A stretch of DNA of 32,279 nt, from the NCBI GenBank assembly GCA_010672165.1, contig JAAHHN010000061.1, positions 1 to 32,279 of the forward strand, given 5' to 3'. Below, in pieces: positions 2,324-16,590 of the stretch. The position numbers were made by a program, and so were the translations under genes. The number at the start of each line of letters is the position of its first letter. Position 1 is the stretch's first letter. The stretch comes from Spirulina sp. SIO3F2. Lineage in GTDB: Bacteria; Cyanobacteriota; Cyanobacteriia; Cyanobacteriales; Spirulinaceae. Under the pieces are notes generated by a model, which was not told the origin of the DNA, did no database searches, and was given only the letters and a program-made list of their open reading frames with translations.

Positions 2324-2461
2324 TTTCGCCAATTCCGTCTCCAGGAGATAAGTTGTGAATATACAGAAGTTCTATGCATCAATTTATCTCTTTTATGCAG
2401 AACACTTGGACGAAGATTGTAGTGATTCCAATCAGTTCCCTGAAAATGCCTAGAGGTAGTG

Positions 2462-5116
2462 ATGGCCCAAGCAGTTCAAGCCGCTACAACAAATCAACTT
2501 AAGTTAGCTAAGCAAGGGCATCCAGACGCGATCGCAGCCCTGATTAACCGGTCCTTGCGCACGAAGAAGATAAACGTGCAGGTGAGCCGAAATGCAGACT
2601 GCTTAGTACTCATGCTACGTGCAGATGTGTTGCCTGCTCCTGCCAAATTGGTTCCTTGGTTAGAGCGAAACTTGTCTGCCCTCAAGATTCCATCACTCCA
2701 ACAAGTGCAGATTATAGGGTGGCAAACTCATGCAAAATTACCAGTATGGACTCAGGAGATCACGACTCGAGCGGGAAAGCCTATATCCACTGACCCGAAA
2801 CATTCTCCTGAGAATGGTGTACCCCCTCAAACACCGTGCAGAATTGAGGCCAATATTCAAGCAAGAGATGTTCCCGGACAGGTTACTGTTGGCCACAACA
2901 ATACTATCGTTGGTGAAAATGGAAGTTTAGTTATAAATCAGCTTCCGGCCAATCAAAAGCCCACGATCACACCCATCGCTGTTGGAGATGACTTTAAGCC
3001 TCCAAAATTCCCTCACTTATTAGATCGCCTTAATGCATCACAGCAGATTAAGGAAATCCTACAGGCATCTCAGAACGTCGAATGTTATGGCTCTCAAGGG
3101 TTGGGTAAAACTGCGCTACTTCGATTTTCTGCCCATCGAGATGATATTACGCCTTTGTTCCCAGATGGCATTATCTATCTGTCTGCACGCAACAAATCTG
3201 TTGACGATCTATTGCAATCGCTATTTGAGGCGTTTTACGAAACTGATATTCCGTTTAAGCCTGCAACAGAAATGCATTTTCGCCGTATGTTGCGGAATAA
3301 AAAGTCATTGGTTCTGCTTGACAATATAAATGGTAGCCAGATCGATATCGAGTACCTCTTGAGTTGTGCTCCTGACATCAAGTTCTTATTAGCATCCCAG
3401 CAGCAAAATCTTTCAGAATCTGATGCAACTGCATTGCCTCTCAGCGGATTACCCATGCCCGATGCGATCGCTTTATTTGAGCGATCGTTGGAGCGATCGC
3501 TGCAACCCATTGAGCAAAAAGCGGTCAGAGAATTGTGTGCTCACTTAAAAGGACATCCGTTGCAGATTAAGCAGATAGCCAGTCTAATCCGGCATCAAAA
3601 GATTGCAGTACTGGATAAAGTCAAGCACGTTTTAGCGACCCAATCACCTGAGCAGGTCACTGTGGAAACGGCTAAAGAGCTTCTTGATTCAGCCCAGCAA
3701 GCACTTCCAGTGCTAGGGCTCTTAGCTGGAGTACCTTTGCCAGCTAATGCTCTGGCTGAGATTTCTGGCACCACTAATATCAATGCCACCTTGGCTTTGT
3801 TAGAGGATTTGAGTTGGCTTTCTACCAATGGTACGCAATATTGTTTAGCCGAAAATTTAGTCACACCACTAAAACAGATTTGGGATTGGAGTGGGTGCTT
3901 ACCTCGATTGGTTAACCATATAACAAGATGGAGTGAACGTTATGCACAAAACTCTACAGAAATCTTAGAGTGTGCTGATGCCGTTCTCCAAACGCTAAAA
4001 CTTGCAGCAGAAGCAGGGCAATGGTCTGAAGTGTTGTACCTGAGCCAACTATTCGACAAGCCACTATGGTTAAGTCGTCAATGGGGCATGTGGGAACAGG
4101 TTCTGCAATGGCAACTACAAGCGGCTCAGGTTATAGGCAACCCAACTGCGACAGCACTAGCCCTACATCAATTGGGAACTCGTTCACTCTGTCTTGATGA
4201 TTCACTCTCAGCGAATGCTTATTTGCATCAGGCATTAGAGCTTCGTGAAGCGATTGGCGATAACGTTGGTGCAAGCATCACACGCCATAATCTGGGATTG
4301 CTGCTTGGCGACATTGAACCAATAGCTGAAAGCGTGTCAGATGTAATAACGCCAACCCCCCCTAGCCCATCACCTTGGCCGCGTCTTGCACTGGTTGCCA
4401 TGCCGATTTTAATCGGGGCAATAGTTGGTGGTTATGTCACATTACAGAACATTAATATTAGTACACCGACGTCTAATGGGTCTCCCAATCCTGAGCCTAG
4501 TCCATCTCCAAGCCCTGAACTTAGTCCATCTCCCAATCCTAAGCCTACTCCGTCTCCAAGCCCTGAACCTAGTCCATCTCCCAATCCTAAGCCTACTCCG
4601 TCTCCAAGTCCTAAACCTACCCCGTCTCCAAGCCCTAAACCTACCCCGTCTCCAAGCCCTGAGCCTAGTCCATCTCCAAGCCCTGAACCTAGTCCATCTC
4701 CCAATCCTAAGCCTACCCCGTCTCCAAGCCCTGAACCTAGTCCATTTCCCAACCCTGAGCCTAGTCCATCTCCAAGCCCTGAGCCTACCACCATACTTCC
4801 ACCCAATGTGAGTCCAACCAACATAGACTTTGAAGATGACACTAAAACACCTAGAACAATAACTATTAGGCTTGATGGGCGAGGAGAGTCAACAATAGGC
4901 AAAGTTGATGTTGTAGGGGAATATCCCAAAGCCTTCAAAATCATAGATGACCAATGTTCTGGTAAAACTTTAAGGTCTCAGCAGAATTCTTGTGTTATCC
5001 AAGTGCAGTATATAGCGGGTTACCCTACAACGCGAATAGAAGCTCAACTTTTAATTCCGAATAATTCTTCTAGTAATCCCAAAGTAGTCGATTTAGCGGG
5101 TTCCAATTTAATTTAA
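2462..5116 (+). CDS. STAND (NB-ARC-like) NTPase with TM, Pro-rich stalk and ASH-like domain
   Basis: 884 residues from ATG 2462 (GTG at 2459 also possible; AGAGG at 2452). Residues 1-100 form an N-terminal module that I recall from other cyanobacterial signalling proteins; it has no name I can give. Residues 131-147 carry the motif NI[15 protein letters not shown], shared with the next gene. The NTPase spans about 180-480: Walker A GSQGLGKT (K216), Walker B SLVLLDN (D287), and GHPL near 364 as in NB-ARC GLPL. LLASQQQ stands where sensor-1 usually has an arginine (Q313). A short TPR-like segment (about 568-617) precedes one TM helix (641-661). A Pro-X stalk (675-776) and a C-terminal domain (784-884) with the choice-of-anchor/ASH pattern and Cys832/Cys844 follow. 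Arg just before the TM suits an N-in topology, putting the stalk and sandwich outside. Likely a conflict or programmed-cell-death sensor. Confidence 0.85.
4484..4789 (+). repeat. In-frame minisatellite encoding Pro-X stalk
   Basis: Tandem units built from 6 bp (Pro-X dipeptide), nested into 18-, 24- and 48-bp repeats of CCTAGTCCATCTCCAAGC-like sequence. They encode [16 protein letters not shown]-type protein of about 100 residues. All length steps visible keep frame. Near-identical neighbouring units indicate recent slippage or unequal recombination, so length probably varies between strains. Confidence 0.9.
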
Positions 5117-5136: not shown

Positions 5137-5850
5137 ATGAACAAACAAGAGCAATCTTCAAGATCAATCTCTTTGAATATTACAGCCCGTGATATTCCAG
5201 GGCAAATCAATGTAGGAGAGAACAATCAGCAAATACAACAGCAGATAGGAATATCACAACTCGAACAAAACGCCCGAAAAACCATCTTGTTTTTGGCAGC
5301 CGATCCAACTAATATTTCACGATTGAGACTGGGGCAAGAACTACGAGAAATTCAGGAAAGATTACAGCTATCAAAAATGCGTTGTCAATGTAGACTGGTG
5401 CAGCGCATGTCAGTTCTCCCTGTAGATATTAGTCAAGCACTTTTAGATGAGGAGCCTAAAATTGTTCACTTTTCTGGTCATGGAACAAATTCAGGAGCTT
5501 TATGTTTTGAGGATGAGATAGGAGAATCGAAACATGTCTCGACTAACGCTTTGTCATCTTTGTTTGAGTTAGTGAAAGATCAAGTCGACTGTGTGTTGCT
5601 GAATGCGTGTTATTCAGAGATCCAGGCACAAGCCATTGCGCATCATATTAGCTATGTCATCGGAATGAATGATGCGATCGGGGATAAGGCTGCCATCTCA
5701 TTTTCGATTGGCTTTTATCAAGCACTTGGAGCTGGTAAATCCATAGAAGATGCTTATAAACTTGGCTGTGTTCAAATAAGTCTACAAGGTATTCCTGAAC
5801 ATCTCACACCCGTTCTTATAAAATATCCCGGAACGAAGCTTTATCAATAA
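5137..5850 (+). CDS. CHAT-domain (caspase-like) protease effector
   Basis: 237 residues. Residues 14-30 repeat the motif found in the upstream STAND protein (NI-x-ARD-I-PGQ-I-x-VG-x-NN), followed by a Gln-rich linker. From about 47 comes a CHAT/caspase-like fold: strand TILFLAADP, helix with RLGQELREIQERL, KIVHFSGHGT (catalytic His115) and VDCVLLNACYS (catalytic Cys158). The late VIGMNDAIGDKAAISFSIGFYQALGAGKSIEDAY segment is also typical of CHAT. There is no signal peptide or TM, so it is cytoplasmic. It starts 20 bp after the STAND gene in the same direction, with no strong ribosome site of its own. The likely role is a protease switched on when the STAND partner oligomerises; substrate unknown. 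Confidence 0.88.
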   Translation: MNKQEQSSRSISLNITARDIPGQINVGENNQQIQQQIGISQLEQNARKTILFLAADPTNISRLRLGQELREIQERLQLSKMRCQCRLVQRMSVLPVDISQALLDEEPKIVHFSGHGTNSGALCFEDEIGESKHVSTNALSSLFELVKDQVDCVLLNACYSEIQAQAIAHHISYVIGMNDAIGDKAAISFSIGFYQALGAGKSIEDAYKLGCVQISLQGIPEHLTPVLIKYPGTKLYQ

Positions 5851-13464: not shown

Positions 13465-16400
13465 CTAACATACAACAGTTTTAGATTCTCGATTTAATTT
13501 AGTAACTTTTGATTTTTGGGGTTTAACAGGAGGAGGCAGAAAGGCGATCGTTTTGAGGTAATCAAAGTAGGTTCCGAATACATGATCGCCATCGGGAAGC
13601 TGACAGGATGGCTTGGTCGCCAAGGTCTGCTCAACCTTATGGGTATCCCAGGTAAATGGCCCCAGCAAGCCCTGAATCAGGATGGGATTTTTTAGGATGG
13701 GGGTCAATGAAGCCAGCGTATTTTCTGTCTGTGCGCCAGACTCAGAGACCGTTTGAGCTAACTGCTCATACCAAGCTTCATAGGAGGTGAGTTGAATGTC
13801 ATAGCCCAGCTGTTGCAATCGAGCAACTAATTCTGACCAAGAGATGGCATTAGGGTTGACCAAATTAAAGGCTTGACCCACGGCTGGAGCAGGCGAGGAG
13901 AGCGAAACGATCGCACGGCTGACATAATCTACCGGTACAATATTCAGGTTCATGGGGAGATCCGGGGCTAGACCCATTTGTAGACAACCTTGCAACATTT
14001 TGGCGACAAAATCGCTGGTTTGGCTAATCCCAGTTTTGCTATGACCGACAATATTACCGGGACGATAAATAGCCATCGGTAAACCCCGCGATTGTGCTTC
14101 TTTGAGCAACTGTTCGGCCACATACTTGCTCCGAGCATAGCCAGTGAGCAATTGTTGACTCGGCCCAATGGGATCATCTGCACAAATGGGATTGAGTACC
14201 TTATCGGCGTCAACACCAAATACATCAATCGTAGAAACAAAATGTAACGGTTTAACCTTGGTTCGGCTGGCTAAACGAATCACTTCTTGGGTTCCCTTAA
14301 CGTTGATGGCTTCTAATCTGGAATAGGGATAAATAAAATTTACCCAAGCGCCACAGTGATAAATTAGATCAATTTTTTCACTCAGCCGCTCGAACTGTTG
14401 GGGTTGAATCCCTATAAGGGGCTGACTTAAGTCACCGAGGATAATAAAAATGCGGTCCTCAAACGCTTGCTCCCAGGCAGAATAGCGATTGAGCTGACGT
14501 TGAATTTTAGCTCGAGCCTCGGCTTTACTGGTCGCCCGAACCAGACAGTAGATATCTGCCCGCGTCTGCTGCAACAGTTCATAGAGGATGCCCCCCCCTA
14601 AAAAACCGGATGCTCCAGTTAGGAAAATGGAAGGAATCACACCTTGCAAATGGGTCTCAGGATAAATGACCGGATCGAGTCGGGTACTAAGGTCGATTCG
14701 AGGATAGATGTCCACTTGACCCTGACGCACAATCTCGATGGTTGTGGCCAGACCCACTAAAGTTGAGTTTTCGAGAAAGGCTTCGAGGGGCACTTCAACC
14801 TGGAGAGATTCCCCCACCTGGGCTAGCATCGGCAGCACCAGCAGGGACGTGCCTCCCAATTCTTCAAAACTGTCGTAGACGCTGATTTGAGCAGCATCCA
14901 TCTCCAGTAACTCACTCCAGATTTTAACCAGTGCTTCCTCAATTTCTGTCGTTGCTGGCTGATAGGTCTGATCATCTGAGCGCAGCCATTGAGGAACGGG
15001 TAAGGCTCGCCGGTCAATCTTGCCATTGAGGGTCAAAGGAAGTTCGTCCAGAATGACAAATTCCGTCGGGATCATATAGTTCGGTAATTGCTGTTTGAGC
15101 GTGTCTCGCAAGGTGCGGACGGTGAGCTGAGAGGTAGAGTTAATGGGCTTAAGCTTTGGGACAACATAAGCAACTAGTAGAGTTTCGCGATCGGGGTTGT
15201 CTTTACGTGCCAGCACAACACTCTGACGCACTTGCGCTTCCTGATTTAATACAGCTTCAATTTCACCCAATTCAATGCGAAAACCTCGAATCTTCACTTG
15301 ATGATCGATACGTCCCAAACATTTGAGATTTCCGTCTGGTAGATAAACTGCGAGATCACCAGTCTTATAAATCCGTGCATTTGCTGTATTGCAAAAGGGG
15401 CTGGGGAGAAACTTTTCAGCCGTTAGCTCAGGACGATTTAAATAGCCGCGTGCTAGACCTGCGCCACTGATATAGATTTCGCCCACGGAGCTATCCGCGA
15501 CAGGATTCAGATGATCGTCTAACAGATAGATCTGAGTATTTGAGATGGGACGACCGATAGGGGGAATTGTCGTTGAGCCTTTGGGAATACGGGCAACGGT
15601 GGAGTAAGTGGTATCCTCACTGGGTCCGTACAAGTTGAAAACATGATCCACAAAGTCGAGAGCATAGAGTGCCTGAACAAGATTGTTCTGGAGAGGCTCC
15701 CCGGCGAGGTTAATCGTATGAGCGGAGTCGGGAATTCCTTGGGTACGGAGTAAGGCAGCGATCGCCGAAGGCACTGTATTAATTAAGGTCACTTGCCCCG
15801 CAGCCGGTAGCTCTGGCAACTCCAACGCATTTTGAGCAAGAATAATTGTCCCACCACAGCTTAAGGTCACAAAGAATTCAAAAACCGAGAGGTCAAAACA
15901 CAGGGAAGTGGAGGCTAAAACGCCCTGCAGTTGCTCAGGTGAAAAGAAGCTTCGCGCCCATTCAATAAAGGCGACGGTATTACGATGCTCGATCGCCACC
16001 CCTTTGGGTTTACCTGTTGAGCCAGAGGTGTAGATGACGTAGGCTAGATTGTTGCAGGTGACGGGACTGCCCGGATTAGTCATGGGCGATGCTGTTGCTT
16101 CGAACCAGTTCACATCCATATAGAACGGTTGGATAGAGGCGGCCTGAGCGATCGCGCTGGCTAAATTACCCTTCTGATGCTCATCCCCTTGTCGCTCTGT
16201 TAAAACGACATTCAATTGCGTATCCTCGATAATGAAGCCGAGGCGCTCTGCAGGGTAGCTAGGATCGAGAGGCACATAAGCCCCGCCAGCTTTGAGGGTT
16301 GCAAGCAAGGCAATCGGCATATTGAGTGACCGATCTAAGCCAATACCGACAAAAACTTCTGGGCCCACCCCTAACTGTTGCAAGTAATGGGCCAACTGAT

Positions 16401-16590
16401 TGGCTTTCTTATTGAGTTGGCGGTACGTCAACTGTTGCGTACCAAAAATGACCGCGCAGCGATCTGGCGTTTTCTTGGATTGTGCTTCAATCAATTGATG
16501 AATGCATTGCCCTGAATCCGAATAACTGAGCCCGCGTTCATCAGTACTTGCTTTCTTCGATACTGCTTGAACATCTGGTGAATCGCTCAT
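13465..16590 (-). CDS. NRPS-like protein: adenylation, carrier and thioester-reductase domains
   Basis: 1041 residues. The A domain (about 28-535) has LTYRQLN, YTSGSTGKPKG (188-198), FDLSVFEFF, NLYGPSEDTTYS, YKTGDL, GRIDHQVKIRGFRIEL and NGKIDR (Lys523). The carrier domain (about 545-620) has Ser582 in ELGGTS for phosphopantetheine. The reductase domain (from about 655) has TGASGFLG, then YARSK (Tyr818/Lys822) of an extended SDR fold. No condensation domain is present. The protein should activate one amino or carboxylic acid, hold it as a thioester and release an aldehyde or alcohol with NAD(P)H. A by-eye specificity code is D-L-F-A-N-A-L-T-Y-K, one change from a code I recall for alanine in cyanobacterial NRPSs; treat as tentative. 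It stands alone, with no biosynthetic partner in the window. Confidence 0.92.
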   Translation of the reverse strand: MSDSPDVQAVSKKASTDERGLSYSDSGQCIHQLIEAQSKKTPDRCAVIFGTQQLTYRQLNKKANQLAHYLQQLGVGPEVFVGIGLDRSLNMPIALLATLKAGGAYVPLDPSYPAERLGFIIEDTQLNVVLTERQGDEHQKGNLASAIAQAASIQPFYMDVNWFEATASPMTNPGSPVTCNNLAYVIYTSGSTGKPKGVAIEHRNTVAFIEWARSFFSPEQLQGVLASTSLCFDLSVFEFFVTLSCGGTIILAQNALELPELPAAGQVTLINTVPSAIAALLRTQGIPDSAHTINLAGEPLQNNLVQALYALDFVDHVFNLYGPSEDTTYSTVARIPKGSTTIPPIGRPISNTQIYLLDDHLNPVADSSVGEIYISGAGLARGYLNRPELTAEKFLPSPFCNTANARIYKTGDLAVYLPDGNLKCLGRIDHQVKIRGFRIELGEIEAVLNQEAQVRQSVVLARKDNPDRETLLVAYVVPKLKPINSTSQLTVRTLRDTLKQQLPNYMIPTEFVILDELPLTLNGKIDRRALPVPQWLRSDDQTYQPATTEIEEALVKIWSELLEMDAAQISVYDSFEELGGTSLLVLPMLAQVGESLQVEVPLEAFLENSTLVGLATTIEIVRQGQVDIYPRIDLSTRLDPVIYPETHLQGVIPSIFLTGASGFLGGGILYELLQQTRADIYCLVRATSKAEARAKIQRQLNRYSAWEQAFEDRIFIILGDLSQPLIGIQPQQFERLSEKIDLIYHCGAWVNFIYPYSRLEAINVKGTQEVIRLASRTKVKPLHFVSTIDVFGVDADKVLNPICADDPIGPSQQLLTGYARSKYVAEQLLKEAQSRGLPMAIYRPGNIVGHSKTGISQTSDFVAKMLQGCLQMGLAPDLPMNLNIVPVDYVSRAIVSLSSPAPAVGQAFNLVNPNAISWSELVARLQQLGYDIQLTSYEAWYEQLAQTVSESGAQTENTLASLTPILKNPILIQGLLGPFTWDTHKVEQTLATKPSCQLPDGDHVFGTYFDYLKTIAFLPPPVKPQKSKVTKLNRESKTVVC

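Follow-up and report, generated by a model that had tools for sequence, protein, structure and literature searches.

A predicted membrane-spanning STAND/NLR-type receptor and a motif-sharing CHAT neighbour in Spirulina sp. SIO3F2

Could a bacterial receptor of the NLR type sense what lies outside the cell? This question is raised by a receptor gene and an adjacent CHAT caspase-like protease gene on contig JAAHHN010000061.1 (assembly GCA_010672165.1) of the cyanobacterium Spirulina sp. SIO3F2, whose positions 1 to 32,279 form the 32,279-nucleotide stretch analysed here and referred to below as the window. The usual description of NLR proteins is that of intracellular receptors (PMC9815663; this and the other papers cited are drawn on through the accessible parts of their text). 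The answer proposed here, which we hold with moderate confidence, is a single-pass membrane receptor of NLR/STAND type that would sense outside the cell and recruit the adjacent protease inside it by motif templating. A first-pass annotation of the window had already suggested an outward-looking STAND sensor, and this suggestion is now well supported as a prediction by a conserved helix site, by surface-type modules behind it and by ASH copies with two Cys residues.

The receptor gene occupies positions 2459-5116 of the forward strand, on which the parts of the receptor and of its neighbour given below also lie. Its open reading frame encodes 885 residues from the GTG at 2459; the ATG at 2462 is also possible, and the residue numbers of the first-pass annotation, right in themselves, are each one lower because they were counted from that ATG. 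Based on its NB-ARC domain (aa 198-404, 3050-3670; Pfam E 6.4e-8, 32.6 bits against a curated cut-off of 23.5) and its intact Walker A sequence GSQGLGKT (aa 211-218, nt 3089-3112), the product can be assigned to the STAND/NLR-like NTPases. The family profile relates to the solved STAND proteins PH0952 (E 5.3e-10) and AfsR (E 7e-7), and the best PADLOC match of the receptor had E 0.012. Further downstream lies a short TPR-like region at about aa 560-616 (4136-4306), as seen at first pass; TPR_12 covers only aa 565-616 and stays under its threshold (16.9 bits, cut-off 30.1), and the region corresponds to a conserved block in the alignment of the family profile A2, described below.

Relatives were collected with family profiles. 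A first full-length search was dominated by the stalk and by a common N-terminal module, and two clear relatives were taken from it. Profile A1, built from three receptors (those of the window, L003 and L004), was matched at E 1e-20 in 17 of 388 sampled genomes of the order and, among named genomes, at 12 loci, including Argonema, Nostoc, a Coleofasciculus bin, Scytonema, Brasilonema, Calothrix and one Thermoflexia bin. Profile A2 (21 rows) was matched in 44 of 388 sampled genomes of the class, and flanks were read for 34 of these 44. The two samples were drawn evenly from larger groups, overlap and both contain the window's own genome, with at most three candidates scored per genome. The family comparison covers 59 members from 61 loci, L080 (at a contig end) and L132 (the same open reading frame as L062) having been dropped; the duplicates L056 (of L032), L057 (of L065) and L064 (of L033) fell outside the 61 loci. 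A single peptide pattern, applied to viral contigs, fitted 18 stretches, none of which held a relative, a weak negative. One member, L074, has a P-loop that reads GFANS rather than GxGKT and for this reason probably no longer binds nucleotide. The Thermoflexia bin (L053) has the same receptor type together with a small effector, which may reflect transfer or a binning error.

A transmembrane helix is predicted at aa 643-662 of the window's receptor (4385-4444), in agreement with the helix placed at 641-661 by the first-pass annotation. Its best 19-residue Kyte-Doolittle mean, 2.11, is the maximum of the whole protein, and no charged residue lies inside it. At the same site, a helix with a 19-residue mean of at least 1.6 is present in 53 of the 59 family members, counting L143, where it lies at aa 509 (1.84). 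As a control, 30 other NB-ARC loci from 39 related genomes were considered, 7 of which were too short or lacked the P-loop pattern; none of the 23 judged, 14 of them seen in part, reached 1.6, and the best value (1.58) came from a stretch with two charged residues. Because the NTPase needs cytoplasmic ATP and there is a single helix, the C terminus is predicted to lie outside, an orientation that the Cys pairs and surface-type modules described below would also favour. The first-pass annotation had argued for it from the flanking charges. For the window this argument stands, with Arg642 directly before the helix and neither Lys nor Arg among the next 20 residues after it; across the family it is too weak to decide. 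Among 46 members with tails of at least 60 residues, counts of Lys and Arg within 20 residues on each side are higher ahead of the helix in 23 and higher behind it in 13, with 10 showing no difference.

Behind the helix comes a Pro-Ser/Lys/Glu stalk of 109 residues (aa 675-783, 4481-4807), close to the extent given at first pass (675-776), with 52 Pro among the 110 residues from 675 to 784. Its DNA is a 24-nt tandem repeat (12.4 copies, 4490-4787, 78% matches), so that the length of the stalk can probably change easily. With the rise of a polyproline II helix at approximately 0.31 nm per residue, the stalk would reach about 34 nm. It leads to a beta-sandwich of ASH/choice-of-anchor-D type (aa 784-885, 4808-5113) in which Cys833 (4955-4957) and Cys845 (4991-4993), spaced by 12, correspond to the Cys832 and Cys844 of the ASH-like domain recognised at first pass. 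The NCBIfam choice-of-anchor D model matches this sandwich with E 1.8e-4 and 22 bits, under its curated cut-off of 45, and an ASH family profile built without the window scores it at 48.5 bits (E 4e-14, for a nominal 1000 sequences). Modelling of the domain with AlphaFold, as had been proposed in the first-pass annotation, gave pLDDT 94.8 and pTM 0.85 from a 52-row alignment. Structural comparison of this model with Foldseek and VIA-align 2 grouped it with HYDIN-type ASH domains and with that of CEP192 (Z 12.7, 2.1 Å, 103 residues aligned), followed by cilium Ig domains (11.4), secreted VesB (11.1) and VesC (10.9), and periplasmic chaperones. Such matches of a model point to a fold, of PapD/HYDIN-like Ig type, and not to a function.

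Surface-type modules recur behind the helix in the relatives, namely ASH, Big_9/cadherin-like and CshA-like domains. A Pfam scan of 46 of the 47 tails of at least 60 residues (that of L143 was left out) found HYDIN-type Ig in 23, ASH in 22, DUF1573 in 16, Big_9 in 7 and the cadherin-like Cadherin_5 in 7, these families overlapping one another. The Argonema relative carries ASH and three Big_9 domains (E 1.7e-75), and the Thermoflexia ectodomain (L053) gave sub-threshold matches to Ig and Fn3. Tails rich in Pro and Thr, with no domain discerned by eye, are found in L058-L061. An iterated search recovered 63 ASH copies in 24 family proteins, and all 61 full copies have exactly two Cys, spaced by 11 in 45 of them, the profile itself containing Cys columns, so that Cys-less copies may be missed. 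Outside the ASH copies, Cys residues number 42 in 10,877 tail residues, and the cytoplasmic parts contain 301 in 35,928. In the window, Cys833 and Cys845 probably form a disulfide. Eukaryotic ASH domains are among the best structural matches, and those of HYDIN and CEP192 are cytoplasmic, which would suit a protein outside any membrane, with its hydrophobic stretch packed on the TPR region and its C terminus in the cytoplasm as in these eukaryotic proteins. We consider this very improbable, given a helix of hydropathy 2.11 without charges, a site kept in 53 of 59 members against 0 of 23 controls (14 seen in part), the Big_9/cadherin-like arrays behind the helix of relatives and the strict Cys pair.

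The second half of the predicted system, the CHAT gene and the motif that it shares with the receptor, had been left out of the first-pass annotation. This gene (5137-5850), whose ATG lies 20 nt past the receptor stop, encodes a predicted caspase-like protease of 237 residues (Pfam CHAT 30.6 bits, cut-off 24; in PADLOC chat alone, E 9.2e-20). Its CHAT domain (aa 67-206, 5335-5754) was placed by alignment with the closest solved chain by sequence, 8tl0_A (E 2.3e-11), in which the His (HFSGHG) and Cys (LNACYSE) regions align; His115 (5479-5481) and Cys158 (5608-5610) occupy the expected dyad positions and are presumably the catalytic pair. Identity as an EACC1-type caspase was considered and rejected (caspase_w_EACC1, 11.9 bits against a cut-off of 140). 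The N terminus of the CHAT protein (aa 11-35, 5167-5241, ITARDIPGQINVGENN) repeats a RHIM/BASS-like motif that precedes the NB-ARC domain of the receptor (aa 128-163, 2840-2947). Searched against all six frames of the complete 7.3 Mb genome with an E limit of 10, the 36-residue receptor motif found only itself and the adjacent CHAT protein (E 0.001). A phmmer search with the CHAT protein returned the receptor at E 9.7e-6 among 805 open reading frames and, in six frames of its own genome, at E 2.3e-4 together with three CHAT-type matches elsewhere.

Motifs of the BASS type are known from two-gene NLR clusters, mainly of actinobacteria and cyanobacteria, in which the partner is mostly Bell and less often CHAT or TIR (PMC7889193); ten BASS families have been described (PMC8086366, PMC12261475). 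The core of RHIM reads G-(I,V)-Q-(I,V)-G, and BASS3 is related to it (PMC7885112). Cores of the form G-Q-x-x-V-G or [IVL]-Q-[IVL]-G were found in 36 of the 59 receptors by a loose pattern that carries no chance control. Judged by sequence, the receptor and CHAT genes form a two-gene cluster sharing a motif, as in BASS systems.

Homology places an effector gene next to 15 of the 59 receptors. It encodes a CHAT protein in seven (the window, L032, L066, L067, L131, L139 and L143) and a protein of 103-144 residues in eight (L053, L054, L055, L065, L138, L141, L146 and L152). In L157 and L158, a trypsin domain is fused ahead of the STAND receptor with its transmembrane helix (by Pfam for L158), and a Trypco1 gene lies directly upstream of the L158 receptor. 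The motif is N-terminal on the CHAT protein of L032 and C-terminal on those of L066, L067, L131 and L143, where it belongs to a different class (AGDNAIMLGNFGQVGNINL and similar) with which the adjoining receptor also begins. It is likewise found on the 140-144-residue proteins of L053, L054, L055, L065, L141 and L146, and the receptor motif is then of the same class. The CHAT protein of L143 (4131-5489 at that locus) also carries a guanylate/adenylate cyclase domain, its C-terminal motif matching the neighbouring receptor, and that of L139 has a TRADD-like N domain. A match between the Nostoc small effector and the Argonema CHAT protein (E 9.1e-6) is taken to arise through the motif. For the small effector itself, a fold assignment was abandoned, the AlphaFold model being too poor (pLDDT 59.3, helices from residue 45, motif region below 50).

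Receptor and effector motifs go together across the family. The comparison used 14 pairs, without L055 because it nearly duplicates L054. Their cognate motif scores add up to 825, those of shuffled pairs to 506 +/- 48, and 0 of 100,000 shuffles reached the cognate sum, a count that is no true probability since the motif windows were picked after the motifs had been seen and the pairs share descent. The subsets gave 0.00035 for CHAT pairs alone, 0.0069 for small effectors alone and 0.0003 for the GQxxVG class alone. On a quick tree of the cytoplasmic core, effectors changed at least 5 times among 17 labelled rows, and ectodomains at least 5 times. L032, with a CHAT protein, groups with Nostoc L054 and L055, which have the small effector (SH-aLRT 83); despite these different effectors, both L032 (by Pfam) and L054 (by eye) have ASH followed by Big_9-type repeats. 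The window's receptor groups with L137 (97, starred), its closest relative at 45% identity. L137 carries ASH in four copies, and its motif reads IQARDIIGQVVVGNNN.

Several observations weigh against an outward-sensing receptor coupled to its neighbour by templating. As regards topology, the helix is weak in five members (1.08-1.49) and one further member, L151, is truncated; the positive-inside trend across the family gives weak support for a cytoplasmic N terminus; and the window's tail matched no Pfam family at E 0.001. Nine members (L134-L136, L153-L156, L162 and L163) keep the helix with a tail of only 17-31 residues. These same nine adjoin an nrdR-like gene, named by eye; several of their motifs are eroded, and L163 has lost the P-loop. 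They were possibly repurposed and vertically inherited. Retention of the helix where the ectodomain is absent, in these nine as in several Pro/Thr tails without a domain by eye, is what would be expected of a membrane-anchored NLR that senses inside the cell, its helix, stalk and sandwich forming a tether to the wall or outer membrane and its TPR/NB-ARC part recognising a cytoplasmic ligand as in Avs proteins. This alternative is unlikely in our assessment. Sensing in the cytoplasm would predict the opposite of the observed pattern, in which a short TPR block is conserved and the ectodomains differ in their type and in their number of copies; moreover, the short-tail group, with its often eroded motif and the P-loop lost in L163, may have changed function.

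As regards the coupling, no effector was found beside or fused to 42 of the 59 receptors by CHAT and small-effector homology, neighbours read in part and Pfam on a few, some of the contigs ending close to the receptor. Beside the L137 receptor no effector was seen, and a search of that genome for another copy of the motif, with an E limit of 10, found none. In L152, the small effector is encoded on the opposite strand and has a divergent C terminus, for which reasons its match may rest on the motif. The cognate motif ranks first in only 6 of the 14 pairs and among the top three in 11, the three exceptions being L065 (rank 6), L139 (rank 9, motif not seen) and L138 (rank 11, the called open reading frame lacking the motif). 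On the core tree, 15 of 56 inner branches are open. Finally, a Pfam scan of 8 motif peptides matched no family, RHIM included. This last result, together with the fact that the motif class differs between pairs, would be compatible with an ordinary beta-strand or a disordered adaptor, that is, an effector-associated peptide holding receptor and protease in a stoichiometric complex without amyloid-like templating. We regard such an adaptor as somewhat unlikely, since the length of the motif, its Gly/Asn turns and its core patterns resemble RHIM, PP and BASS3, and since PMC7889193 already describes pairs of this kind in bacteria, in which an NLR and its partner, sometimes CHAT, have a BASS motif in common.

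If the receptor does face outward, its NB-ARC switch and short TPR region would sit in the cytoplasm, one helix would cross a membrane, more probably the plasma membrane than that of the thylakoid, and the stiff stalk would carry the ASH-type sandwich into the periplasm or beyond. A change in the ectodomain may then drive nucleotide exchange and the clustering of NB-ARC heads under the membrane. Clustering would align the receptor motifs, which could template the matching N-terminal motif of CHAT and thereby concentrate and activate the putative protease, the outcome probably being self-limiting proteolysis or cell death. We infer the first and last steps of this scheme; its middle steps would build on the motif data together with the principle published for NLR pairs. 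Among candidate triggers, recognition of a surface, of the wall, of kin or of a neighbouring cell would fit as well as envelope damage or phage adsorption.

This architecture has partial counterparts among known systems. Ser/Thr kinases with PASTA or other ectodomains combine a cytoplasmic signalling domain, one helix, a linker and a repeated beta ectodomain, a kinase standing in place of the window's NB-ARC switch and protease. Avs-type and other antiphage STANDs are alike in their central STAND switch, C-terminal sensor, such as TPR, and effector, and their binding of phage proteins takes place in the cytoplasm. These STANDs bind phage proteins (PMC10907252), whereas the sensor of the window is predicted to lie outside the cell. 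The STAND/lectin sensors of multicellular bacteria that are diversified by diversity-generating retroelements are likewise STAND-linked, and one NACHT/lectin target is predicted to be periplasmic (PMC10907252); these sensors are C-type-lectin-like and retroelement-diversified, and the accessible text mentions neither an ASH domain, nor a stalk, nor a shared motif, all present in the window. In the EACC1/EACC2-caspase and GAP1-N2 conflict systems (Kaur et al. 2020, 2021), variable C-terminal modules, caspase-like proteases and effector swapping are found as well, and some conflict proteins have transmembrane helices with outer periplasmic-binding, CHASE2 or cadherin domains. From what is accessible of these reports, however, the partner with the helix and outer domain is a caspase or GAP1 protein and not a STAND, and the window's CHAT protein is not of EACC1 type. 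The BASS clusters (Dyrka et al. 2020, through citing papers; PMC7889193) share with the window adjacent NLR-like and effector genes with a common short motif, CHAT being an occasional partner. In the parts available, these clusters carry the effector motif at the C terminus of Bell domains, and an outward receptor is not mentioned, whereas the window has the motif at the N terminus of CHAT, beside a receptor predicted to span the membrane. Motif-coupled NLR/CHAT pairs are thus already known, and an outward-facing one is not described in the open-licence literature searched, as far as its accessible text goes; no STAND with a membrane-spanning ASH/cadherin build was found there, and the tables of Dyrka et al. 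2020 may contain members.

Other features of the window are more peripheral. The N-terminal module of the receptor, of approximately 100 residues (aa 12-112, 2492-2794; LAKQGxPxAIAALxNRxLxxKGI...), has no Pfam match, is common in cyanobacteria and recurs in open reading frames of relatives there (L016, L019, L021, L025-L027, L030 and L031), where its partners, by eye, are WD40-like repeats, hydrophobic segments or other tails. Upstream of the receptor, a DsbA-like thioredoxin gene lies on the same strand (1272-1991), and a tie between it and the ectodomain disulfide would be speculation. A protein of 1041 residues with AMP-binding, PP-binding and NAD-binding_4 domains, which we take to be carboxylic-acid-reductase-like, is encoded at 13465-16590. 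A promoter and terminator scan gave sites no more numerous than in shuffles and was not used.

Beyond this locus, it is possible, though we put it forward tentatively, that a class of cell-surface NLRs exists in cyanobacteria and in at least one Thermoflexia bin, with exchanged adhesin-like ectodomains and RHIM-like templating to plug-in effectors (CHAT protease, CHAT-cyclase, small helical protein or fused trypsin). If true, prokaryotes would have their own analogue of Toll-like or death receptors connected to RHIM signalling. The matched motif pairs and the natural swaps of ectodomains and effectors make both the topology and the motif specificity directly testable in laboratory strains. A family of surface-reading NLRs would show that bacteria sense threats, kin or the state of their envelope externally and relay this to caspase-like effectors.

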